Positions 7,011-54,152 of a stretch of DNA of 64,000 nucleotides are shown here, one piece after another. Position numbers and translations under genes: made by a program. How positions within the stretch are numbered: position 1 is the first letter of the stretch; each line of letters starts with the position of its first letter. Below the pieces are notes generated by a model. It did no database searches and was not told where the DNA came from. It saw only the letters and a program-made list of their open reading frames with translations. Source of the stretch: Saccharopolyspora gloriosae. GTDB lineage: Bacteria; Actinomycetota; Actinomycetes; Mycobacteriales; Pseudonocardiaceae. The stretch spans positions 1,613,501-1,677,500 of the forward strand of contig NZ_JACHIV010000001.1 in NCBI RefSeq assembly GCF_014203325.1, in the 5' to 3' direction.

Positions 7011-8651
7011 TTGAACAAGGACCCGCGCGGTCCGGCGGCGAGCCCGGGAGCACCGTTGCGGCAGCTGCTCGTCGCCGTCGGGGAGCCGCTGATCGACCTG
7101 CTCGCCGCCCCGGCAGGACTCGACGCCGACGTGCGCGACGTGGTGATCGTGGAACCGGAGGAGGACTCCACCACGCATCCCGGTGACCTGGTGCTGGTGA
7201 TCGGCGTCCGCGGCCGGTCCGCGCTGCGCCAGGTTCGAGCCGCGGGCCGGGACGGCGCGACGGCGGTGGCGGTCAAGACGCAGACCGAGCAGGACGCGCG
7301 AGCCCTGCGCGATGCCGCGCGCGACGCCGGGATCGCGCTGTTCGGGGTGTGGCCGGAGGTGCGCTGGGAGCAGTTGGAGTCGCTGGTGCGCTCGGTCGTC
7401 GACAACGCCCGGCTGACCGTCGAAGCCGACGCGGGGGAGTCCCTCGGCGACCTGTTCTCCCTGGCCCAGACGGTCGCGGCGATGACCGACGGCATCGTGA
7501 GCATCGAGGACACCGCCAGCAGGGTGCTCGCCTACTCGCGCTCCGACGACGACGTGGACGAGCTGCGCAGGCTGTCCATCCTCGGCCGCCGCGGCCCCGA
7601 GACGTACCTGGCGATGCTGCGCGAGTGGGGCGTGTACGAGCGGCTGCGCTCCGGCGAGGAGGTCGTGCGCGTCGACGAACGCCCCGACCTGGGCATCCGG
7701 CGCCGGATGGCGGTCGGCATCCACGCGGGGTCGCAACCGCTGGGCACGATCTGGGTGCAGGAAGGCGCGACGCCGCTCGAAGAGCGCTCCCGGCGGGCGT
7801 TGCTCGGCGCGGCGCGGGTGGCGGCGGTGCAGCTGATCCGGCAGCGCGCGGAGGCCAGCGCTGCGCCCCGCCTGCGGGAGAACCTGCTGATCGGGCTGCT
7901 CGACGGCAAGGTCGACGCGGCGAGCGTGGCGGGCGACATCGGTGCCGACGCGGCCCGGCCCGCGGTGGTCGTGGTGTTCACCTTGCGCGGCCGGGCAGGG
8001 GTGTCGGACCGCCCGGAGCTGGAACTGGAGCGCACCGAGATGACCGGCTTGATCTCGGTGCACGCCGCGGCCTACCGGCGCAGCGCCCTGGTGACCACGC
8101 TGAGCTCGCGGGTGTACGTGCTGCTGCCGGACCTCCCGTCGCACGCGATGCCCGGAGTGCTCGGCATGACCAGGGAGATCGTGGCCGCCGCCGGCCAGCA
8201 CCTGCGGGCGGCGGTGCAGGCCGGGGTGGGCTCGGTGGTGAGGGCGCTGGACGAGGTGGCGCACTCGCGCGCGGAGGCCGACCGCGTGCTGGACGCCATG
8301 AGCCACGACCTGGACACCCAGGTCGCCACCATCGCCGACGTGCGCTCCCGAGTGGTGCTCAGCGAGCTGCTCACCGTGCTCGGCGGCAACGAGCGGTTCC
8401 GCGATCCGCGGCTGGACGCGCTGTTCGAGCACGACGCCGAGCACTCCGGTGCCCTGGCGAGGTCGGTGCTGGCGTACCTGGAGCACTTCGGCGACGTGCG
8501 CGCCGCGAGCTCCGCGCTGCACGTCCACCCGAACACGCTGCGGCACCGGGTCCGCCGCGCCGCCGAGATCACCGGCCTGAACCTCGCCGACCCCGCCGAA
8601 CGCCTAGCCGTCCAACTCCACCTCCTCCTGCACCGCCGCCTCACCCGCTGA
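7011..8651 (+). CDS. PucR-family transcriptional regulator of proline catabolism (PruR-like)
   Basis: A 546-residue regulator. The N-terminal about 130 residues are a purine-catabolism/PucR-like domain (PGDLVLVIGVRGRSALRQVRAAG). A GAF-like middle follows, then a C-terminal PucR helix-turn-helix with the family signature VRAASSALHVHPNTLRHRV near residue 505. PucR proteins with this organisation sit next to pruA/putB in mycobacteria and streptomycetes and activate them in response to proline; that role is inferred from position. The TTG start at 7011 is the best upstream candidate but has only a distant GGGGAG. A TTG at 7054 (LRQLLVAVGEP) is possible. A structured repeat begins 36 nt after the stop. 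Confidence 0.85.
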   Translation: MNKDPRGPAASPGAPLRQLLVAVGEPLIDLLAAPAGLDADVRDVVIVEPEEDSTTHPGDLVLVIGVRGRSALRQVRAAGRDGATAVAVKTQTEQDARALRDAARDAGIALFGVWPEVRWEQLESLVRSVVDNARLTVEADAGESLGDLFSLAQTVAAMTDGIVSIEDTASRVLAYSRSDDDVDELRRLSILGRRGPETYLAMLREWGVYERLRSGEEVVRVDERPDLGIRRRMAVGIHAGSQPLGTIWVQEGATPLEERSRRALLGAARVAAVQLIRQRAEASAAPRLRENLLIGLLDGKVDAASVAGDIGADAARPAVVVVFTLRGRAGVSDRPELELERTEMTGLISVHAAAYRRSALVTTLSSRVYVLLPDLPSHAMPGVLGMTREIVAAAGQHLRAAVQAGVGSVVRALDEVAHSRAEADRVLDAMSHDLDTQVATIADVRSRVVLSELLTVLGGNERFRDPRLDALFEHDAEHSGALARSVLAYLEHFGDVRAASSALHVHPNTLRHRVRRAAEITGLNLADPAERLAVQLHLLLHRRLTR

Positions 8652-8660
8652 CTTCCATCG

Positions 8661-8880
8661 GGCTCGTTCTGCTAGGGGAGTCCGGTGGCGGAACCTCAGT
8701 TGGCCTGTCGCTGCGGGATCTCTTTCCCAAGTGGCTCCGCCACGAGGGAAAAAGCCGTCCTCGCGACAGGCCAACTGAGAACCCGCTGGTGGTCGGCTTT
8801 TCGACGTGGGCTATGCGCTGTCGCGCATACAAGCACGGCTACGCCGCAAGGCAGGCTTCGCTTGCGCCGCCGAGTGCTTG
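8661..8880 (+). repeat. Structured intergenic repeat, copy 1 of 3
   Basis: This copy lies between the convergent PucR regulator and coaA. The core domain (8688-8786, 99 nt) has an outer stem GCGG-AAC-CTCAG...CTGAG-AAC-CCGC. A 17-bp perfect helix pairs CTCAGTTGGCCTGTCGC (8695-8711) with 8763-8779. An inner hairpin TTTCCC-AA-GTGGC-TCC-GCCAC-GA-GGGAAA lies near 8723-8751. It is followed by hairpin TATGCGC/GCGCATA (8812-8829) and CGGC-TAC-GCCG (8836-8846). The other copies are at 43.4 and 53.9 kb. The outer boundaries are approximate. Confidence 0.85.
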
Positions 8881-8895
8881 CGGTGACGCCCAGGC

Positions 8896-9822
8896 TCAAA
8901 GTTTGCGGAGGCGGACGCGGTTGATGGTGTGGTCGGAGTCCTTGCGCAGGACGAGGGTGGCGCGGGGGCGGGTCGGGAGGATGTTGTCCACCAGGTTGGG
9001 CCGGTTGATGGTGTGCCACAGGTGGCTCGCCTCGGCGCGGGCGTCCTCGTCGGAGAGGTCGGCGAAGTGGTGGAAGTGCGAATCGGGATCGGCGAAGGCG
9101 GTGCCGCGCAGCGCGAGGAACCGATCGGTGTACCAGCGCTCGATGTGGTCGGTGTGGGCGTCGACGTAGATCGAGAAGTCGAACAGGTCGGACACGGCGA
9201 GGCTCGGTCCGGGCTGGAGCACGTTGAGGCCCTCGACGATGAGGATGTCGGGCTGCCGCACCACCTGCTCCTCACCGGGCAGGATGTCGTAGGCCAGGTG
9301 CGAGTACACGGGAGCGCTCACGGCTTCGGCGCCGGACTTGACCGCGGTGACGAACCGCAGCAGCGCCCGCCGGTCGTAGCTCTCCGGGAAGCCCTTGCGG
9401 TGCATGATGCCGCGCCGCACCAGTTCGGCCTTGGAGTGCAGGAACCCGTCGGTGGTGACCAGGTCGACCTGCGGGTGGTCCGGCCAGCGGGCCAGCAGCG
9501 TGCGCAGGATGCGCGCGGTGGTCGACTTGCCGACCGCGACGCTGCCGGCGAGGCCGATCACGAACGGCACCTTCGGCGCCGTCTCCCCGAGGAACGTGGT
9601 GGTGCTGTCGTGCAGCCGCTGCCGCGCCGCCACCTGGAGGTTGATCAGCCGGGACAGCGGCAGGTAGACGTCGGCGACCTCGTCGAGGTCGACGGGTTCG
9701 CCGAGCCCGCGCAGCGCCGCGAGCTCGGAGTGCGACAGGGGCAGCGGGAGCGAGTCGCTGAGCTCCCGCCACTGCTTGCGGTGCAATTCGACGTACGGGC
9801 TCAGTTCGCGGACACGCGTCAC
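8896..9822 (-). CDS. coaA: Pantothenate kinase (type I)
   Basis: About 308 residues; phosphorylates pantothenate, the committed step of coenzyme A synthesis. The family opening [19 protein letters not shown] is present. The Walker A loop [12 protein letters not shown] is near residue 95, and [29 protein letters not shown], and [11 protein letters not shown] follow in the order of CoaA. GTG at 9822 is preferred over GTG at 9831 because the GAGGGG sequence upstream then stands eight bases away rather than abutting the codon. The gene converges on the structured repeat that follows the PucR regulator. Confidence 0.95.
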
Positions 9823-42559: not shown

Positions 42560-43312
42560 ATGAGCGGCCACTCCAAGTGGGCGACCACCAAGCACAAGAA
42601 GGCCGCCGTCGACGCCAAGCGCGGCAAGCTCTTCGCGAAGCTGATCAAGAACGTGGAGGTCGCGGCGCGCACCGGCGGGGGAGACCCGGACGGCAACCCG
42701 ACGCTCTACGACGCCATGCAGAAGGCGCGCAAGAACTCGGTGCCGGTCGACAACATCGAACGGGCCCGCAAGCGCGGCGGCGGTGAAGAGGCGGGCGGCG
42801 CCGACTGGCAGACCCTGATGTACGAGGGCTACGGCCCGAACGGCGTCGCCGTGCTGGTCGAGTGCCTGACCGACAACAAGAACCGCGCGGCGGGCGAAGT
42901 CCGCACCGCGATGACCCGCAACGGCGGATCGATGGCCGACGCCGGATCGGTGTCCTACATGTTCTCCCGGCGCGGCGTGCTGATCGTGCCGAAGAACGGC
43001 CTGACCGAGGACGACGTGCTCGGCGCGGTCCTGGAAGCCGGTGCCGAAGAGGTCAACGACCTCGGCGAGAGCTTCGAAGTGCTGTGCGAGCCGACCGACC
43101 TGGTCGAAGTGCGCAAAGCGGTGCAGGCGGCCGAGATCGAGTACGACTCCTCGGAGCTCAGCTTCCTGGCCTCGGTCAACGTCCCGCTCGACGTCGAGGG
43201 CGCGCGCAAGGTCTTCAAGCTGATCGACGCGCTGGAGGACTGCGACGACGTGCAGAACGTCTACGCGAACTTCGACGCCTCAGACGAGGTCATGGCTGAA
43301 CTCGACGCCTGA
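42560..43312 (+). CDS. yebC: YebC/PmpR family DNA-binding regulatory protein (TACO1-like)
   Basis: A 250-residue YebC-type protein: it starts [36 protein letters not shown] and contains [23 protein letters not shown] and [20 protein letters not shown] at 42560 has GGAGG six bases upstream. YebC proteins relieve ribosome stalling or regulate transcription. The gene sits just before ruvCAB in many bacteria; here a structured repeat and a DUF4262 gene are interposed. Confidence 0.95.
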
Positions 43313-43326
43313 GTCGTTGCTCCGGC

Positions 43327-43654
43327 GTTCGGTTTGGCGTGGTGGTCGGGTGGCGGAACCTCAGCTTCCTTCTCGCTGCGGGATCTTTTTCCCGAGTGGC
43401 TCCGCCACGAGGGAAAAAGCCGTCCTCGCGAGAAGGAAGCTGAGAACCCGCGGGTGGTCGGCTTTTCGACGTGGGCTATGCGCTGACGCGCATACAGGCA
43501 CGGCCTCCGGCCGCAGGGCAGGCTTGGCTTCGCAGCCCACTGCACGGCTTCGCCGCGAGGCACGGCTACGCCGCCGAGCAGGCTTGCTTCGCCGCCCAAG
43601 GCACGGCTTCGCCGCTAGAGGCGCGGCCTTTGGCCGCGAGGCAGGCGTGGCTTC
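43327..43654 (+). repeat. Structured intergenic repeat, copy 2 of 3 (longest)
   Basis: The core 99-nt domain is at 43353-43451. The 17-bp helix pairs CTCAGCTTCCTTCTCGC (43360-43376) with 43428-43444. The inner hairpin is TTTTTCCC-GA-GTGGC-TCC-GCCAC-GA-GGGAAAAA. It is followed by TATGCGC/GCGCATA (43477-43494), CGGCC-TCC-GGCCG (43501-43513) and a tail of further short hairpins of the CGGC-TTC-GCCG type up to about 43654. It starts 40 nt after the yebC stop, in the same orientation as copies 1 and 3. Confidence 0.85.
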
Positions 43655-43733
43655 GGTTGTCGGGGGATCGGGTTCCTCGGTTGCGGGTGTTCGTGCTGGG
43701 GGGAGTCCTGGTGTCGGGGGTTCCCCCGTTCGG

Positions 43734-51521: not shown

Positions 51522-53831
51522 GTGAGCCAAGACGTCGAGTCTCCTGTCTCAGCAACCGAGCAGGTGCGTCCCGCCTCGGCTACCAGGCGGGTACGTGCCC
51601 GCTTGGCCAGACGGATCACGGCGCAGCGCGCCGCGGAGGTCAAGCAAGTGCTGGAGCCGCTGGCAGCGGTGCACCGCGAACTGCATCCGCACGCCGACCT
51701 GGCACTGCTGCAGCACGCCTACGACGTCGCCGAGGACAAGCACAGCCACCAGCGCCGCAAATCGGGTGATCCCTACATCACCCATCCGCTGGCGGTCGCC
51801 ACCATCCTGGGTGAACTGGGGATGGACACCACGACGCTGGTGGCGGCGCTGCTGCACGACACGGTCGAGGACACCGACTACTCGGTGGAGCGGCTCAGCG
51901 CGGACTTCGGCGACGAGATCTCGCACCTCGTGGACGGCGTCACCAAGCTCGACAAGGTGAAGCTGGGCGCGGCGGCCGAAGCCGAGACCATCCGCAAGAT
52001 GATCATCGCGATGGCCCGCGACCCGCGCGTCCTGGTGATCAAGCTGGCCGACCGGCTGCACAACATGCGCACGATGCGCTTCCTGCCGCCGGAGAAGCAG
52101 GCCCGCAAGGCCCGCGAAACCCTCGAAGTGCTGGCCCCGCTGGCGCACCGGCTGGGCATGGCCACCATCAAGTGGGAGCTGGAGGATCTGGCGTTCGCCA
52201 TCCTGCAGCCCAAGAAGTACGACGAGATCGTGCGCCTGGTCGCCAACCGCGCCCCCTCCCGCGACACCTACCTGCGCACCGTCACCGACGAGCTCTCCGC
52301 CCAGCTCGGGACCGCGCGGCTCGCCGCGAAGGTCGAAGGCCGCCCCAAGCACTACTACTCGATCCACCAGAAGATGATCGTCCGGGGCCGCGACTTCGAC
52401 GACATCCACGACCTGGTCGGCGTGCGGATCCTCGTCGACGAGGTGCGCGACTGCTACGCCGCGATGGGCGTGGTGCACGCGCTGTGGCAGCCGATGCCGG
52501 GCCGGTTCAAGGACTACATCGCCCAACCCCGCTTCGGCGTCTACCAATCGCTGCACACCACGGTGATCGGCCCCGAAGGCAAGCCGCTGGAAGTGCAGAT
52601 CCGCACCAGCGAGATGCACCGCACCGCCGAGTACGGCATCGCCGCGCACTGGCGCTACAAGGAGACCAAGGGCCGCAACGGCAGCGGCGGCCAATCGGCC
52701 GTCGAAGTCGACGACATGGCCTGGATGCGCCAGCTGCTGGACTGGCAGCGGGAAGCCGCCGACCCCGGCGAATTCCTGGAATCGCTGCGCTACGACCTCG
52801 CCACCCGCGAGATCTTCGTGTTCACCCCCAAGGGCGACGTGATCACGCTGCCGTCCGGGTCGACGCCGGTGGACTTCGCCTACGCGGTGCACACCGAGGT
52901 CGGGCACCGCTGCATCGGCTCCCGCGTCAACGGCCGCCTGGTCGCCCTGGAGCGGAAGCTGGAGAACGGCGAAGTCGTCGAGATCTTCACCTCCAAAGCC
53001 GAAGGCTCCGGGCCGAGCCGGGACTGGCTGTCGTTCGTCGCCTCCCCGCGCGCCAAGGCGAAGATCAAGCAGTGGTTCGCGAAGGAACGCCGCGAAGAGG
53101 CCATCGACAGCGGCAAGGAAGCCATCACCAAGGAGATCCGCAGGCTCGGCCTGCCGGTGCAGCGCCTCGTCACCGCCGACTCCATCGCGGCCGTCGCCCG
53201 CGAACTGCACTACGTCGACGTCACCGCGCTGTACGCGGCGGTGGGGGAGCGGCAGGTCTCCGCGCACCACCTCGTGCAGCGGCTCGTCGCGCTCATCGGC
53301 GGCGTCGAACAGGCCGAAGACGAGATCGCCGAACGCTCCACCCCGTCGACCGTGCAGCAGCGGCGCCGCAGCACCGGCGACTCCGGCGTGGTCGTCAAGG
53401 ACGCCGGCGACGTGTGGTCCAAGCTCGCCCGCTGCTGCACCCCGGTGCCCGGCGACGAGATCCTCGGATTCGTCACCCGCGGCGGCGGCGTCAGCGTGCA
53501 CCGCACCGACTGCACCAACGCCGACGACCTGCGCAAATCCCCGGAACGGCTGGTCGAGGTGTACTGGGCGCCGTCGGCGTCCTCGGTGTTCCTCGTCGCC
53601 ATCCAAGTGGAAGCGCTCGACCGGCACCGGCTGCTCTCCGACGTCACGAAGGTGCTCGCGGACGAGAGGGTGAACATCCTGTCGGCGTCGGTGACCACGT
53701 CGAAGGACCGGGTGGCGGTGAGCCGGTTCTCCTTCGAGATGGGCGACCCGAAGCACCTCGGCCACGTCCTCAAGGCAGTACGCAACATCGAAGGCGTCTA
53801 CGACGTGTACAGGGTTACGTCTGCGGCGTGA
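51522..53831 (+). CDS. relA: Bifunctional (p)ppGpp synthetase/hydrolase Rel
   Basis: A 769-residue long RSH enzyme. The HD hydrolase is at about 60-215 ([44 protein letters not shown]). The synthetase is at about 250-380 ([28 protein letters not shown]). TGS follows ([26 protein letters not shown]), then the helical and zinc-finger region with [31 protein letters not shown], and a C-terminal ACT domain. GTG at 51522 has GGGAG six bases upstream. Both catalytic halves look intact. A structured repeat begins 39 nt after its stop. Confidence 0.96.
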
Positions 53832-53847: not shown

Positions 53848-54098
53848 GTTTTGGCTTGGGTGTCCGGGTAGCGGAACCTCAGCGGCTTCCTCGCTGCGGG
53901 ATCTTTTTCCCGAGTGGCTCCGCCACGAGGGAAAAAGCTGTCCTCGCGAGGAAGCCGCTGAGAACCCGCCGGTGGTCGGCTTTGGGACGTGGGCTATTCG
54001 CTGCGCGAATACAGGCACGGCCTTCGGCCGCCGGGCAGACTTCGCTTCGCTCGTCCAAGGCACGGCTTCGCCGCGAGGCACGGCTTCGCCGCGAGGCT
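53848..54098 (+). repeat. Structured intergenic repeat, copy 3 of 3
   Basis: The core 99-nt domain is at 53871-53969. The 17-bp helix pairs CTCAGCGGCTTCCTCGC (53878-53894) with 53946-53962. The inner hairpin is the same as in copy 2. The next hairpin is TATTCGC/GCGAATA (53995-54011), where one base pair differs from copies 1 and 2 on both sides. CGGCC-TTC-GGCCG (54018-54030) and two CGGCTTCGCCG hairpins follow. It lies between the convergent relA and P450 genes. Confidence 0.85.
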
Positions 54099-54152
54099 GC
54101 TGGGGTTGTTGTGGGGTGGGTGTTCCGTCTGGGCAGGTGCCCGTGGCCGCGC

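Follow-up and report, generated by a model that had tools for sequence, protein, structure and literature searches.

The repeat in the window

We have analyzed a window of 64,000 nucleotides from Saccharopolyspora gloriosae, whose genome (6,825,909 bases) is called G000 below. Behind genes coding for PucR-type HTH_30, YebC/TACO1 and RelA/SpoT domains, the window contains three copies of a 99-nt hairpin core, all on the + strand and all built on a common frame (Table 1). The 9-nt arms are perfectly complementary within each copy and different between copies, and in all three cores the 17 bp formed by CTCAG, the nine variable positions and CGC pair without a mismatch. This agrees with the initial annotation, which had noticed the three cores at these positions, with differing arms and partner strands that match. 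It had also taken the cores to be exactly the same, but a few positions of the inner hairpin and the bulge differ outside the arms. Neither are the 9-nt middles unrelated, as had been proposed: the 43 distinct and perfectly matched arm 9-mers that we collected all have T at position 9, and 40 of them have C at position 8.

From the outside inwards, the core is made of GCGG/CCGC, an AAC/AAC internal loop, the 17-bp helix (CTCAG-N9-CGC), a TGC/C internal loop, a short helix (GGGAT/GTCCT) that begins and ends with a wobble, another helix, an inner loop and a small hairpin, the whole being close to its own complement. The AAC/AAC loop is nearly invariant, each of its bases being retained in 146 to 148 of 148 99-nt cores, and the sense-strand wobbles G28-U and U32-G are conserved. 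As RNA, the 146-nt regions around the three window cores fold better than their dinucleotide shuffles, by 4.8, 5.9 and 6.5 s.d. (z = -4.8, -5.9 and -6.5).

Table 1. Features of the three copies of the repeat in the window
Feature	Positions	Strand	Remarks
Copy 1, core hairpin (99 nt), type 1 flanks	8688..8786	+	arms TTGGCCTGT / ACAGGCCAA
Copy 1, context			core 36 nt past the stop of the gene ending at 8651 (PucR-type HTH_30 domain); convergent PRK/uridine-kinase-family gene opposite
Copy 1, variable 5' arm	8700..8708	+	
Copy 1, variable 3' arm	8766..8774	+	reverse complement of the 5' arm
Copy 2, 5' linker, stop codon to core	43325..43352	+	left boundary inexact; linkers listed for other copies
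Copy 2, core hairpin (99 nt)	43353..43451	+	arms CTTCCTTCT / AGAAGGAAG
Copy 2, context			YebC/TACO1-family gene ends at 43312, core starts 40 nt past its stop
Copy 2, AAC/AAC internal loop	43357..43359 and 43445-43447	+	two sides
Copy 2, variable 5' arm	43365..43373	+	
Copy 2, variable 3' arm	43431..43439	+	
Copy 2, inner hairpin	43385..43419	+	paired variation between copies
Copy 2, type 1 tail	43452..43640	+	second hairpin (CTATGCGC...GCGCATA), then short GC-rich palindromic units; right boundary inexact
Copy 3, core hairpin (99 nt)	53871..53969	+	arms CGGCTTCCT / AGGAAGCCG
Copy 3, context			RelA/SpoT gene ends at 53831, core starts 39 nt past its stop; convergent cytochrome P450 gene opposite
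Copy 3, variable 5' arm	53883..53891	+	
Copy 3, variable 3' arm	53949..53957	+	

In a copy, a 5' linker leads to the imperfect hairpin of about 99 nt, which is followed by a 3' part containing a second hairpin. The linker often reads GGCTCGTTTTGC...GGTCGGGTG, and the 3' part is mainly either of type 1 (ACGTGGGCTAT...), which has a GC-rich tail, or of type 2 (CTGCTCAGCGGCTTCGCCGCTGA...). An outer inverted repeat encloses some of the forms. Specifically, the pairing of the outermost halves is better within a copy than across copies for type 2 (p = 0.003, n = 85) and for the distant copies (p = 0.0014, n = 39), a signal that is absent in type 1 (p = 0.28, n = 87) and in the class "other" (p = 0.28, n = 17). 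A copy of genome G248 (L254, about 1957-2195) has an outer inverted repeat of 20 bp (CTGAGTGCCTGTCTTTGAAC), whose first bases include the apparent TGA stop of the upstream gene. Behind type 1 copies come runs of short palindromes rich in GC (GCACGGCTTCGCCGC, GCAGGC... variants), in the window at 43490-43640, 8840-8900 and 54010-54100, and the number and order of these units vary between orthologous sites. They may be a repeat family of their own that is carried along with the hairpin repeat.

Copy number and distribution

The exact pattern GCGGAACCTCAG-N(5-15)-CGCTGCGGGATC has 288 matches in the G000 genome and none when it is read backwards as a control, a count far beyond chance. With a looser pattern we found 294 matches in G000, 105, 184, 104, 13 and 13 in five congeners, and 46 and 1 in genomes of other genera (G018 and G010), so that 8 of 60 genomes, G000 included, were carriers. 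The initial annotation had proposed a search of Saccharopolyspora and other Pseudonocardiales genomes. Within the family Pseudonocardiaceae, our model of the repeat (R1) matched 65 of 249 genomes, which fall into 14 of the 46 genera (E <= 1e-4; at most 16 places scored per genome). In the order, matches were found in 17 of 298 genomes (E <= 1e-5), all 17 belonging to the family of the window genome. Among the matches listed are Saccharopolyspora NFXS83, HNM0986, hirsuta, oryzae and ipomoeae, and also Halopolyspora algeriensis, Halosaccharopolyspora lacisalsi and Actinopolyspora biskrensis. In the G018 chromosome (4.83 Mb), 41 of the 46 copies are co-directed within their chromosome half (20 + and 3 - in the first, 2 + and 21 - in the second), a tally that does not separate replication from gene-strand bias.

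The impression of the initial annotation that the repeat belongs to no named family held: Rfam 15 is without such a family and gave no match in the window at gathering scores, and at E values up to 1 the sole hit in 43300-43700 fell in the tail, with 22.7 bits against a cut-off of 90. We recognized no published description of the repeat in the open-access literature searched. Plasmids and phages gave no match at E up to 1e-5 and viral contigs no match to the exact pattern, and a horizontal vehicle of these kinds was dropped as a candidate.

Position with respect to the genes

Genes were called with a simple codon-score script, and only copies with called neighbors on both sides were used (185 rows of 199 copies; 222 of 239 records). 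All of the 185 were extragenic. The 222 copies were distributed as 97 between convergent genes, 84 in tandem spacers and co-oriented with the genes, 35 in tandem spacers and reversed, and 6 between divergent genes, against a background of 565 spacers of 100 bp or more with 86 convergent, 318 tandem and 161 divergent. The proportion of 84 : 35 within tandem spacers (35/119 reversed) has a p value of 8e-6.

The distance from the stop codon to the start of the core has a median of 37 nt (IQR 33-41, 5-95% range 22-81) in 181 co-oriented copies. The core was located 20-50 nt past the stop in 134 of 150 copies, compared with 54.3 +/- 4.8 when elements were slid within their own spacers, assuming an element length of 247 nt and omitting the 31 of 181 copies without free space. 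The same register was found in 29 of 34 spacers that leave at least 300 nt behind and in 14 of the 16 that leave 400 nt or more. Since it is retained in roomy spacers and exceeds the sliding control, the register is not imposed by short spacers. The stop codons ahead of the repeat (156 TGA, 21 TAG and 4 TAA, n = 181) are similar to those of all called genes (982, 97 and 20, n = 1099). The repeat is an element of gene 3' ends and for the most part keeps a set distance from the stop codon ahead of it.

Pairing and covariation

In 33 G000 copies (29 distinct rows), 98.6% of the cells pair. Two-sided changes affected 13 of 40 pairs (8.6 +/- 1.3 in shuffles), and the cells changed on both sides were 94, compared with 24.9 +/- 3.8 after shuffling and no more than 15 in slid controls. 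Pair types were not more numerous in these copies than in shuffles (22 vs. 21.3). RNAalifold was applied to 47 cores, sense-strand matches chosen from the window, other species and other genera with near-duplicates omitted, and predicted 34 pairs, 21 of them with two-sided changes. These reach the outer GCGG/CCGC, the last CTCAG/CTGAG foot pair and the inner helix. The initial annotation had read the covariation as evidence of selection on pairing. Our analysis upholds a structured repeat with two-sided changes well above shuffles; selection at the RNA level does not follow in the same way, because of the kind of mismatches found in the arms (see below). Arms that are not complementary in copies across the genome had been named as the observation that would count against the claim. 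Over the 236 copies with an intact frame, pooled from G000, its relatives and distant genomes, arm matching was perfect in 156; 59 copies had one mismatch, 12 had two and 9 had three or more.

Selection on the sense-strand RNA predicts that departures from pairing should be G-U rather than A-C. We counted 15 G-U and 43 A-C on the sense strand in the 101 distinct arm combinations that have no more than two mismatches. By source, the G-U/A-C numbers were 5/3 in G000, 3/5 in G002, 1/2 in G003, 8/27 in the named set and 0/18 in the distant set, so that the lean to A-C comes from the pooled and distant sets and is not seen in G000 alone. Given this lean over sense-strand G-U, selection at the RNA level is unproven. 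We also considered the rarity of G-U as a proof of action at the DNA level and rejected it, because the tRNAs of the same stretches are equally poor in G-U, with 2/166 pairs in 8 tRNAs (15 candidates less the doubtful ones) compared with 6/940 among the element's variable pairs (p = 0.34). In the 31 distant copies, all arm positions considered, there were 18 A-C departures and none of G-U. A C-A mismatch at the fourth arm position recurs in copies of several other genera (among L239-L278), and is perhaps an older state of the element.

Comparison of orthologous sites

In line with a mobile element, one of the options of the initial annotation, presence differs between relatives at orthologous sites. 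Positions are given here as those in the G000 stretch compared. The sites 223536, 232375 and 308085 are empty in the relative G001, with flanks 95% identical, and the first of them has a decayed copy in G002. At 232375 no more than a few bases separate the start of the G000 element from the same stop codon, and the element is followed by a terminator-like hairpin, as found in G001, while at 244947 it is G001 that has a terminator-like hairpin ahead of the element. Since such a hairpin persists behind the element at 232375 and 313288, the element does not replace the terminator at these two sites. No clean target duplication was visible at the compared sites, where the surrounding spacers have diverged. 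At about 288604-289451 (82462-83206 in G001) the same site apparently carries the element in opposite orientations.

We compared 59 G000 elements, over 852 kb, with G002. Both flanks could be placed for 51, and a copy in the same orientation was shared at 14 and not at 37, the latter being an upper bound for absence, as copies that had decayed or been turned were not counted. Where a copy is shared, the arms were identical at one site, differed by one pair at two sites and by two to five pairs at 11. Stepwise compensation within one locus had been implied for the replacement of whole 9-nt arms, but for the most part this is not supported by the 14 sites, 11 of which differ in at least two pairs. 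The arm-pair changes were two-sided in 38 cases and one-sided in 5, and both copies had perfect arms at 8 of the 14 sites. In pairs where both cores are 99 nt long, identity was 99.3% over the rest of the core, 96% in the inner hairpin and 90% in the flanks. Linker and downstream part are more alike at orthologous sites than when swapped (0/5000 permutations; p = 0.005), a likeness less clear for the arms (p = 0.01). Similarly, of 12 sites with both flanks in G001, 5 are shared with G000; the arms are the same at none of the 5 (17 two-sided changes, 5 one-sided), and they are no more alike than swapped ones (p = 0.58), whereas linker and downstream part are (p = 0.04 and 0.03). The relA site has a type 1 copy with CGGCTTCCT in G000; in G002 its copy is of type 2, carries CTGTCTTCT and has a small deletion. 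Site 329917 gives a clean single compensation, GTGGCCTCT to GTGTCCTCT, over an identical linker.

Because the arms differ while core and flanks stay alike, much of what appears as compensatory change looks like exchange between copies, together with some paired substitutions. Three or more arm mismatches were found in 9 of 199 copies, and in 5 of these 9 both arms are recurrent variants (4 of the 5 come from one draft assembly); copies joining two recurrent variants would fit half-conversions. Differing arms and types would also result if the element had inserted repeatedly at one spot. From these comparisons we infer gene conversion between copies, plus an added force that keeps the arms matched.

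Relation to known repeats

REP and BIME elements are described as high-copy palindromic hairpin repeats of intergenic regions, some of them located close behind stop codons (PMC3733652, PMC12306157), and the hairpin repeat resembles them in all these respects. In the wide sense of a high-copy extragenic palindrome it is REP-like, with 288 copies, and 185 of 185 outside genes. However, REPs are given as 20-40 bp long (PMC3733652), whereas our core has 99 nt, fixed internal loops and replaceable arms, and the action of REPs on translation has been reported at <16 nt from the stop (PMC12306157), whereas our core starts about 37 nt past it. GTAG appears about 11-14 nt ahead of the core in some linkers only, so the repeat is not the GTAG-footed palindrome of 20-40 nt that characterizes a REP. 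Among 15 genomes searched for the Y1 transposase (PF01797), four had matches (G004, G005, G017 and G200), and there was none in G000, G001, G002, G003, G018, G080 or five more. The four genomes in which the repeat was counted most often are among those with no match, and a REP driven by a RAYT was ruled out on this ground. The repeat is thus REP-like in its working, but without a Y1 transposase in these genomes we do not file it as REP/RAYT.

Two other classes share some traits with the repeat. MITEs are non-autonomous transposons with terminal inverted repeats. Like them, the hairpin repeat is non-coding and present in high copy, shows a signal of an outer inverted repeat in some forms and varies in presence between relatives. 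No clean target duplication was seen in the spacers, which have diverged, and no autonomous partner among the two end forms searched; the outer repeats vary between copies and are undetectable in type 1. Intrinsic and bidirectional terminators are strong hairpins behind stop codons that are enriched between convergent genes, and so is the repeat (97/222 vs. 86/565 in the background), but it is a dispersed homologous family and precedes another terminator-like hairpin at the two sites mentioned. We count it among the dispersed structured repeats of gene 3' ends.

How the repeat may spread and be kept

The reading that we prefer, with a probability of about 0.55, is that of a high-copy, non-coding, structure-dependent dispersed repeat, similar to a large REP/BIME. 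Copies would spread by a mover acting on the folded strand and recombine with one another by gene conversion, so that a locus would gain a new arm pair in one step. Copies with unmatched arms would be removed by selection or mended through hairpin-templated repair. The transcript past the stop codon would form a long 3' hairpin that may protect the end of the message or aid termination, and this effect would make the insertion tolerable or useful. No mover was found. An autonomous partner was sought by exact search of the genome with two end forms, which occur at 12 and 3 places with no pair at transposon distance, and this candidate was dropped.

The fixed stop-codon register, the co-orientation in tandem spacers (84 : 35, p = 8e-6), the strong folds, the near-invariant AAC/AAC loop and the wobbles G28-U and U32-G would also suit a cis-acting RNA of the 3'-UTR, a regulator or terminator bound by a host protein, in which the sense RNA is selected, the register is mechanistic and spread is secondary. 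We consider this possible but doubtful, since arm departures are A-C more often than G-U, contrary to the tolerance of G-U in RNA (in G000 alone 3 vs. 5), and 35 of 119 copies in tandem spacers are reversed; the hairpins still found behind the element at 232375 and 313288 speak against a terminator role. A folded single DNA strand could instead be the substrate of a recombinase or transposase, in the manner of attC or IS200, with only matched hairpins being able to move. Outer halves that match within a copy in type 2 and in the distant copies, the 20-bp pair of L254, a mismatch lean that is G-T on the bottom strand and the co-directed copies of G018 (41/46) are in its favor, but neither a Y1 transposase in G000, G001, G002, G003 and G018 nor a pair of the two exact end forms at transposon distance was found, and the outer-repeat signal is absent in type 1 and "other", all of which makes this explanation unlikely.

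The matched arms might even be a mutational by-product, if quasi-palindrome correction copied one arm onto the other with no selection. The copy at 242122 of the G000 block has its 5' AAC changed to GTT, the complement of the 3' side, where a relative keeps AAC. But unselected correction would erase AAC/AAC and the other mismatched loops, and because these are nearly invariant we regard a pure by-product as very improbable. Hairpin-templated DNA repair could also keep arms matched, and the copy at 242122 is one likely case.

One can tentatively think of a new selfish or domesticated class, in which insertion is set by the stop codon, the helix is free in sequence but not in pairing, the arms are swapped as a cassette among hundreds of copies and a family-specific protein reads the fixed loops, but we consider this unlikely as a whole. 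If true, the sequence of a helix would change more quickly than the DNA around it, with its shape preserved. Hundreds of hairpin copies that vary in their pairs make it testable whether selection, gene conversion or templated repair is at work, and on which strand or molecule. Taken together, the evidence points to an uncatalogued repeat kept for its shape, one that places a large structure of fixed form behind many genes, relA and yebC included, in actinomycetes that produce antibiotics.
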